In this document: in pieces, positions 25,522-39,352 of the stretch
Layout of the letters: every line of letters starts with the position of its first letter
How positions within the stretch are numbered: position 1 is the stretch's first letter
From: Thermoproteota archaeon
Lineage (GTDB): Archaea; Korarchaeota; Korarchaeia; Korarchaeales; Korarchaeaceae
Reading direction: 5' to 3'
DNA: 64,000 nucleotides
Assembly (NCBI GenBank): GCA_026986575.1
Contig: JALSOH010000004.1
Coordinates: forward strand, 372,001 to 436,000
Notes under the pieces: model-generated
Database searches by the model: none
The model's input: only the letters and a program-made list of their open reading frames with translations
Told to the model about the DNA's origin: nothing
Position numbers and translations under genes: made by a program

Positions 25522-26201
25522 TCAAGACCGGGGAGTGAGTGGCTTGAAGGGGGAGGAATCTTCGAGTATCCTCATTGACTTCAGGACAAACCTCAAAACC
25601 AGCAGCATGAGCGGAATTCCAAGTAGTAGGAATGAGCCGGGATCCACGAACAGGAGGAAATCGTAGGTGCCGTGAAGTAATACCGGAAATGCCAGCGCCT
25701 TCGCCAGACCCCCCTGGATCCCATAATCTTCGCCCTCCCCAAGTACACTCCCATGACAGCACCATCCAGCGCGTGGCTCGGAACTGCCAGCACTGCCCTC
25801 ACTAAACCCACCAGAACCCCACCTTCCAGCACGTAAAACAGGTTCTCCAATGTGGCAAATCCCAAGGAGGAAGCTACAGAGTAAACTACTCCATCAAAGG
25901 GCTCATTGAATTCTTTCGAGTTGTAGGCCAGCAATAATACCGCCAAGAACTTCACGAGCTCCTCCGGAAATCCTATACCGAGGTAACTCATGTAAATTAG
26001 GAGCGAAATGTCCCTCAACCTAGGGGATAGGTTAGAAAGTAGTAGGTCCTCAAGGAGTACTGCTGGAAAAACGGCCAGCACCCCAGCGAGGAACACCTTT
26101 CCAACTAGTGACAAAGATTCCCTTTCATATTTATCCTTTAGATAGAAAATCATCAGCAGAAACAACCCAGGGGCCACTGAGAGCGCTAACAGATGTAACA
26201 T
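25522..26201 (-). pseudogene. PrsW-family membrane protease, broken by a one-base frameshift
   Basis: Eight or so hydrophobic helices and the PrsW motifs are seen: FPEELVKFLAV (EExxK), GFATLEN and VPSHALDGAVMG. The uninterrupted frame ends at 25593 with an unrelated tail. If one G is restored in the G6 tract (plus strand C6, 25709-25714), the other frame continues as LAKALAFPVLLHGTYDF and further helices to a TGA at 25522-25524. This supplies the missing H-G-x-Y-D motif. The reconstructed protein has about 226 residues, normal for the family. The cause may be a genuine mutation, tract slippage during expression or a sequencing error. Confidence 0.82.
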
Positions 26202-26218
26202 GATCCTCCTCCCACTCT

Positions 26219-26280
26219 GGGGGGTCGGGACTCGGCAAAGTCATCACCCGTCAGCCGGTTGATCCTACCTCATTCCCCCT
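26219..26280 (-). ncRNA. Box C/D guide sRNA targeting 16S 5' end and 23S rRNA
   Basis: Read on the minus strand: 5' stem GGGGG; box C AATGAGG (26274-26268); 13-nt spacer TAGGATCAACCGG; box D' CTGA (26254-26251); 3 nt; box C' GTGATGA (26247-26241); 12-nt spacer CTTTGCCGAGTC; box D CCGA (26228-26225); 3' stem CCCCC pairing with the 5' stem. This is the canonical archaeal dual-guide layout. The first spacer is complementary to CCGGTTGATCCT, the start of archaeal 16S rRNA. The second is complementary to GACTCGGCAAAG, a conserved 23S segment as I recall it. Boxes C and D are slightly degenerate. A TATA box lies 25 nt upstream. Confidence 0.8.
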
Positions 26281-26299
26281 AGAGCCTTGGGGTAATCAA

Positions 26300-26309
26300 C
26301 CTAATAAAG
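26300..26309 (-). promoter_or_regulatory. TATA box of the box C/D sRNA
   Basis: On the minus strand CTTTATTAGG is centred about 25 nt upstream of the first stem base of the sRNA at 26280. This is the normal archaeal spacing and supports independent transcription of the RNA. Confidence 0.6.
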
Positions 26310-26372
26310 GGATCAGCCATCAACCCAGCTTCAATCAGCCAGTCAAAAGAGGAGGGTAGGGAAGGAAAGCAA

Positions 26373-27245
26373 TCACCCCTCCTTCTCCGCCTTGACCTTG
26401 GCAGGAAGGGCCTCAGCTGGCTTATGCGGCTTGAGACCAAACTTCCTCTTTATCAAGAGCTTCTTTAAGAGCTGTATTCCTTGGGCAGGATCAACCCCTC
26501 TTGGACAGACATCTGAGCAGGAGGCAGCGAAGTGACAGCGCCAGCACCCATGCTCGGTATCCACGATGGGTATCCTGACATCTAGACCGTCATCCCTAGT
26601 ATCAACTATGTACCTGTACGCCTGAGCTAGGGCTTGAGGTCCTAGGTACTCGTAATCTGTTGCTGCGGTTGGGCAGGCGGAAAGACATGCACCGCACTTT
26701 ATACAATCGGTGAACTGGTAGTACCTAGCATACTCATCAACTGTCTGCTTGTAAGGGCCAGTAGGATTGTTCAGCTCGACCTCATCGTTCCTTATTATCC
26801 AAGGCTTCACAGCCCTGTGCTTTTCGAAGAAGGATGTGAAATCAGCAGCTAGGTCTCTCTCAACGGGGAAGTTATCCAAGGGTCTCAACTCGACGACATC
26901 ACCGCTTCCAGCAGCCTCCAGAACTCTAGTCTGACAGGCCAGCATCTGTTTGCCGTTTATCATCATGGCGCACGATCCACAAAGTCCCATCCTGCAGGAG
27001 TACCTTATTCCAAGGGAATGATCCGTCTCCCCCTTTATTATAAGGAGGGCATCTAAGACGGTCATTCCTCTAGAAACTTCCAGTTCGTGTTCCTCCCAAT
27101 GTGGAGCGTAATCTTTCCTCGGGTTGTATTTGTAGATCCTGAACTTTATCTTCCTCACAGGCTTCCAGAGCTCCTCGGAGGCCTTCACGGTCTCCTCAAG
27201 TACCTCAGGCGGAAGAACATATTCCTTAGCTTCCTCTGAAGCCAT
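26373..27245 (-). CDS. sdhB: Succinate dehydrogenase iron-sulfur subunit
   Basis: SdhB carries electrons from the flavin subunit to the membrane quinone. A 2Fe-2S ferredoxin domain shows CRMGLCGSCAMM and a distal Cys (LACQTRV). The C-terminal domain has CIKCGACLSACP for the 4Fe-4S cluster and CWRCHFAASCSDVCPRGVDP for the remaining clusters. The length of 290 residues is slightly longer than average because of N- and C-terminal extensions. It is the last gene of the sdhACDB operon. About 90 bases separate it from the sRNA promoter. Confidence 0.95.
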   Translation of the reverse strand: MASEEAKEYVLPPEVLEETVKASEELWKPVRKIKFRIYKYNPRKDYAPHWEEHELEVSRGMTVLDALLIIKGETDHSLGIRYSCRMGLCGSCAMMINGKQMLACQTRVLEAAGSGDVVELRPLDNFPVERDLAADFTSFFEKHRAVKPWIIRNDEVELNNPTGPYKQTVDEYARYYQFTDCIKCGACLSACPTAATDYEYLGPQALAQAYRYIVDTRDDGLDVRIPIVDTEHGCWRCHFAASCSDVCPRGVDPAQGIQLLKKLLIKRKFGLKPHKPAEALPAKVKAEKEG

Positions 27246-38873: not shown

Positions 38874-39254
38874 ATGGCTGAGGAGTCCCTCCCACCAAGT
38901 CTGGGGAAAGTGCTTAAAAAGCTCGACAGAGGAGAGGAAGTGAGCGATAAGGAGTTATCTAATGCCTTCGCTGAGCTCAGGAGAGATTTCTTCAAAGTAG
39001 GAGAAGTTCTACTCTCTACGAGATTATCCCTATATGAGATGATCAGGTTGGGCATAGAGACGGCGGACGAGGACCTATTTCTCGCATGCGAAGAGCACGA
39101 TTCCCTGAGGAGGATCGTCTACAAGGTCGTGAGGATGATGAGCGGGGAGAGTTTGGAGAAGGCATCCAAGGAGATACTCTCCAAGGACTTGGAAAGGACC
39201 CTCTTGGGTGCGTTCATAATGAGAAGATTGGGTGGTCGGGGCGGGGGGACTTGA
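38874..39254 (+). CDS. Helical protein of unknown function overlapping the tRNA-Tyr gene
   Basis: This 126-residue soluble protein is mainly helical (for example LSNAFAELRRDFFKVGEVLLST and SLRRIVYKVVRMMSGES). The start ATG 38874 has TATA-like TAATCTTTATC about 28-36 bases upstream. Its last seven codons, encoding a Gly/Arg tail, lie antisense within the 3' end of tRNA-Tyr (39233-39254). I recognise no family. Confidence 0.65.
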   Translation: MAEESLPPSLGKVLKKLDRGEEVSDKELSNAFAELRRDFFKVGEVLLSTRLSLYEMIRLGIETADEDLFLACEEHDSLRRIVYKVVRMMSGESLEKASKEILSKDLERTLLGAFIMRRLGGRGGGT

Positions 39255-39352
39255 ACCCCCGACCTGCCGGTATCTGTGAGAGCGGGCCGCTGACGGAGCG
39301 CCGCCCGGCGCCCTCTACAGCCGGCCGCTCTGCCAGGCTGAGCTACGCCCCG
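39233..39352 (-). tRNA. tRNA-Tyr (GTA) with a 43-nt intron
   Basis: Acceptor stem CGGGGCG/CGCCCCG has the C1-G72 pair diagnostic of archaeal tRNA-Tyr. The D arm is GCTCAGCCTGGCAGAGC, the T arm is GGGGGTTCAAGTCCCCC and CCA is encoded (39235-39233). The anticodon stem GCCGG/CCGGC encloses loop C-T-GTA-G-A, giving anticodon 39318-39316. The intron occupies 39314-39272, after position 37 as usual in archaea, and folds through a GCGCC/GGCGC hairpin. A TATA box (about 39376-39388) precedes the 5' end by about 30 nt. Confidence 0.93.

Follow-up and report, generated by a model that had tools for sequence, protein, structure and literature searches.

The minus strand at positions 26220-26279 of the 64,000-nt stretch of DNA analyzed here (the window) very probably carries a dual-guide archaeal box C/D sRNA, a two-site methylation guide that would also delay the folding of 16S helix 1 and the central pseudoknot. 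Such an sRNA, compact and with two guides, had been proposed at this place from the letters of the DNA, and our analysis supports this original prediction as the best reading of the locus. Read from 26279 to 26220, the 60 nt from stem to stem run GGGGG-A-ATGAGGT-AGGATCAACCGG-CTGA-CGG-GTGATGA-CTTTGCCGAGTC-CCGA-CCCCC, and the predicted stem, the boxes C, D', C' and D and the two guides were all located. The 5' strand of the closing stem, GGGGG (26275-26279), pairs with its 3' strand, CCCCC (26220-26224). Box C (ATGAGGT, 26267-26273) is followed by guide 1, the D' guide AGGATCAACCGG (26255-26266), whose predicted target is U8 of 16S rRNA. This guide has 12 nt; the 13 nt originally predicted are reached only by including the final T of box C. 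Box D' (CTGA, 26251-26254) is separated by CGG from box C' (GTGATGA, 26241-26247), and guide 2, the D guide CTTTGCCGAGTC (26229-26240) with C1834 of 23S rRNA as its predicted target, leads to box D (CCGA, 26225-26228). Both box C and box D are degenerate, relative to RUGAUGA and CUGA, respectively. Box C supplies sheared pairs through G26271 and A26270, and its G26269 (position 3b) pairs with C26227 of box D (3n); the degeneracy of each box compensates that of the other.

Boxes of this quality in a GC-rich gap might have arisen by chance or might be the remains of a decayed pseudogene, and the degeneracy of boxes C and D could be read that way. So could the Rfam results, in which a scan of the whole window at gathering thresholds did not report the sRNA. 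A permissive Infernal scan of 26150-26350 (201 bases) gave three Rfam matches with E <= 1 (0.016, 0.25 and 0.57), all of them to archaeal C/D families, on the sRNA strand, within 26222-26277 and below gathering. These weak covariance-model likenesses are to sR14 (RF01145), snoPyro_CD (RF00095) and sR36 (RF01124), with 16.7, 15.5 and 13.6 bits against gathering thresholds of 38, 45 and 55, and the sRNA is not a member of any of the three. We then applied a descriptor with relaxed boxes and spacing, using 300 first-order random windows as a control. The descriptor finds a single candidate in the window, the sRNA at 26279-26220 with its 5-pair stem and guides of 12 and 10 nt. The random windows contain four candidates by boxes, none of which has guides pairing over at least 11 and at least 9 nt through position 5. 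Chance origin is refuted by these random windows together with the conservation and covariation of 18 family sequences described below, in which the degenerate box positions compensate each other, and we give the chance or pseudogene explanation next to no credence.

Both guides fit the rRNA of the same genome, which holds one 16S match and one 23S match. The 16S gene lies at G000:C4:144535-146041 and starts AGACCGGTTGATCCTGCC (also given as AGACCGGTTGATCCTGCCGG). Guide 1 pairs with all 12 of 12 nucleotides at positions 4-15 of this 16S (Rfam-aligned count), and its fifth position faces U8, in agreement with the predicted complementarity to the 16S start and the predicted U target. We take U8 to correspond to E. 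coli U13. For guide 2, the predicted 23S complementarity and the C at the fifth position both stand, with 10 paired nucleotides rather than 12: the 23S reads GGAACTCGGCAAATTGG, guide positions 2-11 pair with ACTCGGCAAA, leaving mismatches at positions 1 and 12. Opposite the fifth position stands C1834 (Rfam-aligned 23S count). At 37 C, the duplex of guide 1 has an energy of -22.1 kcal/mol and that of guide 2 an energy of -16.1 kcal/mol. The original prediction was to fail if the spacers showed less than 10 nt of complementarity to the organism's own rRNA; they pair over 12 nt (16S) and 10 nt (23S). Both guides thus have the at least 9 consecutive Watson-Crick pairs including position 5 that are used as a target criterion in the available text of PMC4644070.

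The sRNA lies entirely inside the gap between an SdhB-like iron-sulfur protein gene (named by sequence; 26373-27245, minus strand), its upstream neighbor, and a PrsW-family protease gene (PF13367; 25593-26201, minus strand), its downstream neighbor. As had been proposed, this gap is free of frames across the sRNA, with no listed open reading frame of at least 60 aa covering it. A TATA-like element, TTTATTAG, stands on the same strand at 26301-26308, about 25 nt upstream, where a TATA box had been placed. A T-rich element at a similar upstream distance was read by eye in most relatives and is absent from G001, G002 and G013. In the genus, 15 genomes hold the sRNA, and in 13 of them the SdhB gene stands upstream of it.

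About 20 nt separate the end of the sRNA from the start codon of PrsW at 26201. The k-turn might therefore belong to the 5' leader of PrsW, with L7Ae controlling PrsW translation, and a role of L7Ae in translational regulation has been suggested (PMC5539422, in the portion available to us). We regard this as very improbable. PrsW adjoins the sRNA, downstream, in seven genomes, whereas the other compared loci (up to about 1.5 kb per side) keep the sRNA without it, which is evidence against a leader element; SdhB and PrsW are both absent from the sRNA loci of genera g2, g3 and g4 over the same flanks of up to about 1.5 kb. Moreover, a leader k-turn does not need conserved guides that match rRNA, as both guides do here. 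The PrsW gene is also interrupted in the genome under study. It had been described as broken, and its frame indeed leaves that of its relatives at about residue 165-172, which puts the final ~36 residues in another frame, through either a real frameshift or an assembly error.

Some observations concern the surroundings of sRNA genes more generally. In G010 (L034:4364-5542, minus strand; L024; L006), two contigs differ in what follows the sRNA: a tyrosine recombinase (PF00589) and an RHH protein in one, PrsW in the other. They have exactly 119 bases in common, a stretch that ends at the 3' stem of the sRNA. This looks like an integrative element that uses the 3' end of the sRNA gene as its attachment site in part of the population; the length of the shared stretch may have been set by the assembler k-mer. 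A second conserved C/D sRNA family has the D guide GATCTTGAGTC (G000:C4:545522-545584, L153; also L155-L157 and L150), the fifth position of which would presumably face C34 of tRNA-Leu(CAA), which we take to be a known archaeal target. In G003, a recombinase-like stretch (L154:918-1277; 28% identity over 143 aa) also lies about 200 bases from another C/D sRNA locus of the organism's family. Elsewhere in the window, a tRNA at 39236-39352 (minus strand) carries a long, probably intronic insertion in its anticodon region and was not reported by ARAGORN as run.

We searched the 101-base sRNA region as DNA in 24 genomes of the family. It matches in 15 of the 23 other genomes (E <= 2e-7), with the matches centered on the sRNA; most span the sRNA and little more, those in G011, G012 and G016 extending downstream and that in G006 upstream. 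Reading the loci for the motif adds G007 and G015, giving an alignment of 18 sequences, one per genome. The covariance model made from this alignment, which by construction matches its own 18, adds G020 and G021, both with guide 2. Guide 2 is accordingly present in 20 of the 24 family genomes, the exceptions being G009, G019, G022 and G023 (71-78% complete). Its first position is C in 18 of 18 aligned sequences, although it faces an A of the 23S. An exact pattern detected the 23S target core in 11 of the 24 genomes; the remainder may hold gaps or variants. In G024, which belongs to another family of the same order and is 66% complete, the covariance model has no match.

Guide 1 is present in 15 of the 18 aligned sequences and in G020. 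In G022 and G023, the 16S guide sits inside a C/D sRNA with a different second guide, and the guide for the 16S 5' end is carried by 18 of the 24 family genomes in all. It is replaced in G003, G007, G015 and G021, and the 16S target is therefore dispensable. Guides are thus swapped as modules in the family. The replacement guides of G003 and G007 have no exact complement of at least 7 nt in the partial rRNA of these genomes plus the whole rRNA of the genome under study; in the same rRNA set, that of G015 has only 7-nt matches and one 9-nt match outside the 23S gene of the genome under study. As candidates for a second sRNA with the 16S guide, two of three sites in G003 and both sites in G015 (those with loci) were unlike C/D sRNAs by eye, and G007 has no GATCAACC..CYGA site. 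The start of the 16S is identical, ACCGGTTGATCCTGCC, in all 16 family genomes with a 16S locus, and because of this invariance guide-target covariation is uninformative as a test of guide 1. Separately, the main piece of the 16S genes of G001, G003, G006, G007 and G016 (L073-L077) matches Rfam only to model position 828, possibly through an intron or an assembly break.

Covariation was scored on the 18 sequences with the k-turn written explicitly and with 500 shuffles. Paired cells amount to 88.9% (80.1% in shuffles), cells changed on both sides to 15 (4.4 in shuffles), and the covariation score is 0.312, compared with 0.142 in shuffles and 0.037-0.170 when columns are slid by 1-3. Two further counts stay within the shuffles: four pairs have a change on both sides, as high in 46 of 500, and there are ten further pair types, as high in 75 of 500. 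The closing stem has 92.2% of its cells paired across the 18 sequences and both-side changes in three of its five pairs. For the C'/D' pairs, only 69.4% are standard, U-U not being counted as such.

Within the k-turn, the sheared G/A positions are invariant and the 4b:4n pair is G-C in 18 of 18 sequences. The 3b:3n pair, formed by box C position 5 and box D position 2, is standard in all 18 (GC in 10, AU in five and GU in three), and G020 and G021 have U-U there. Box D is CTGA in relatives in which box C position 5 is A, and in some in which it is G. In archaeal box C/D k-turns, a U-U at 3b:3n is strongly preferred (PMC5689011, as far as the excerpt goes), and a Watson-Crick pair there is reported, in the accessible part of PMC4382518, to prevent folding of the k-turn in metal ions alone. 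Therefore, the k-turn described here should need L7Ae. The box C/D k-turn can thus exchange U-U for compensating pairs. A finder described in PMC7994747 demands at least one U at 3b:3n and would reject G-C versions such as the sRNA of the window.

The genome encodes fibrillarin and Nop5 as adjacent genes. We propose that L7Ae would fold and bend the terminal C/D k-turn and the C'/D' motif, and that Nop5 and fibrillarin would assemble on the L7Ae-bound sRNA. The D' guide would then pair with 16S nucleotides 4-15 and direct 2'-O-methylation to the U five positions from box D', while the D guide would pair with 10 nt of 23S and direct methylation to a C. Guide 1 covers what we take to be the CCGG of helix 1 and the UCCU of the central-pseudoknot strand. 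Its binding and the formation of helix 1 and the pseudoknot should thus exclude each other, judging from the sequences involved. Since the bound guide would mask the 5' strands of both structures, the particle should slow the formation of both and so serve as a folding chaperone besides a modifier.

We asked how far the 16S-5'-end guide extends among archaea with the pattern TGATGA-N(0-8)-GATCAAC-N(0-8)-CTGA, taking the reversed pattern as a control. Among 14 genomes reached through named loci, 13 of them outside the family as judged by title and SdhB identity, four contain the pattern (three Geocrenenecus species and the Nitrososphaerales MAG KUA_Bin06); it is absent from 9 of the 13 out-of-family genomes, and the control gives 0. 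Among 398 genomes of another phylum (that of G030), the pattern occurs at 33 places in 32 genomes and the control at five places; the other 366 have no match at consensus-box stringency. One 22-nt register, TGATGA-N-GGATCAAC-NNN-CTGA, is shared by 25 of these places in 24 of the 398 genomes, which include the four from the 14-genome run. Since the pattern accepts consensus boxes only, the 24 of 398 should be read as a minimum. A run over 29 genomes of the organism's own phylum, probably Korarchaeota, gives only two places, one of which (G018, L171) is in a chance-like register, and this run also misses the sRNA at 26279-26220 itself; consensus-box patterns have no match in G024-G028.

A second C/D sRNA half, which the pattern does not require, adjoins the guide in 22 of the 22 same-register loci examined (of the 25 places). 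Conversely, none of the nine matches in other registers has one (eight from the 398-genome run and one from the 29-genome run), and of 64,000 random positions drawn from these loci, 509 pass the second-half test. L172 (G020), in the same register, failed the scripted test owing to a longer spacer and is a C/D sRNA by eye. The 16S guide occupies the D position in 17 of the 22 loci and the D' position in five.

The partner guides fall into several sets. In seven loci (L182-L187 and L195), the partner holds TTCAGCCTTG, which is complementary to CAAGGCTGAA at 863-872 of the 16S of the genome under study, on which the fit of the seven guides was measured. We take this segment to be h27. A wobble-allowing scan of the same rRNA with three variants scores 25, 24 and 23 at 23S 1270 and 25, 25 and 26 at the 16S site. 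In L195 (G263), the RNase P RNA and the 3' end of the 23S gene lie upstream of the sRNA that combines 16S-5'-end and h27 guides, in the same orientation. In group B (L190-L194 and L176), the partner may be a guide for 16S near position 775 or 284 of the 16S of the genome under study. In group C (L196-L198, L200 and L201), the D guide GGGAGGTGAAGA or ...AGG (GGGAGGTGAAGR) can pair with 9 nt at the 3' end of 16S and may simply be a Shine-Dalgarno sequence. The partners of L175, L177, L178 and L202 have no convincing site in the rRNA of the genome under study.

The position of guide 1 on the 16S recalls U3 snoRNA. The letters of U3 box A are, we assume, similar to those of guide 1. Like U3, the sRNA is a C/D-class RNA with an antisense element over the 5' end of the small-subunit rRNA, where it would block h1 and the central pseudoknot. 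Unlike U3, it is 60 nt long, has methylation-guide geometry and lacks the hinge and the B/C and C'/D elements, and its second guide fits 23S rather than h27. Dennis is said to have raised, in 1997, the idea of a U3-like copy acting in cis in the 5' ETS. We looked for such a copy in the 500 nt upstream of the 16S of the genome under study and rejected it, AGGATC being absent there; in the same 500 nt, the sRNA has at most 9 complementary nucleotides in a row, which belong to its stem and box C.

In eukaryotes, U3 box A' and box A pair with and hold H1 and H27 of 18S rRNA near the central pseudoknot (PMC9196750, in the part available to us). By analogy, the main job of the sRNA could be chaperoning as by U3, the 16S 5' end being held open up to the time at which helix 1 and the central pseudoknot are to form, and methylation being secondary or absent. 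The coverage by guide 1 of helix 1 and the pseudoknot strand, the retention of a single register across phyla and the seven genomes that join the 16S-5'-end guide to one fitting h27 would all agree with such a role; in these seven, the two guides together would cover the 18S-type sites H1 and H27 held by U3. However, the fifth-position register is retained in 22 loci, which suits methylation, the partner guide of the sRNA in the window targets 23S and not h27, and the 500 nt upstream of the 16S offer no pairing like that of the U3 hinge. For some of the seven h27 guides, moreover, a wobble-paired 23S site scores equally (25 and 25 for L182). We therefore consider chaperoning as the main job possible and rather unlikely, and prefer the two-site methylation guide with an additional delaying effect on 16S folding.

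The sRNA has the boxes, archaeal spacing, two guides of about 12 nt, k-turn and closing stem of an archaeal box C/D sRNA, and its belonging to this known kind is well supported. It is like the sRNAs of Dennis et al. 2015 (PMC4644070) and PMC7994747, to the extent covered by the available passages of both, in its length of about 60 nt, its C-guide-D'-C'-guide-D order and k-turn, its two 12-nt guides, the fifth-nucleotide rule, its rRNA targets and its intergenic or gene-adjacent location. It differs from them in a 3b:3n pair that is Watson-Crick or wobble instead of U-U, in a box C of RTGA[AG]G with a box D of CYGA, and in that one RNA targets both ribosomal subunits. The survey in PMC4644070, in its available part, covers seven species and no korarchaeon, and the nearest sites reported in that part are 16S C34-G36. 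In the passages compared, which come from outside Lui et al. 2018 (Pyrobaculum) and the supplementary site list of PMC4644070, we found no C/D sRNA for the 16S 5' end.

A U3-like RNA in archaea has been claimed before. Potter et al. 1995 described a Sulfolobus 'U3-like' RNA for the 16S 5' end, which Russell et al. 1997 later judged an artefact (both as told in an extract of PMC3879963). According to the accessible passages of three sources, archaea are not known to possess U3 or modification-independent folding snoRNPs (PMC8339473), they apparently lack U3-like sRNAs (PMC3608112), and an archaeal small RNA working like U3 'is awaited' (PMC3879963). Tentatively, archaea may have a working counterpart of U3 box A, a recurrent fixed-register C/D guide that would clamp the 16S 5' end and to which some lineages would add an h27 guide, with U3 derived from it or converged on it. 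If so, both contacts of U3 with 18S rRNA would be reproduced in about 60 nt where 16S-5'-end and h27 guides are joined, and U3 would derive from, or converge on, an archaeal methylation-guide sRNA. With a 16S-5'-end guide that keeps a single register in two archaeal phyla and is in some cases joined to a partner fitting h27, the U3 question becomes testable in small, simple RNAs.
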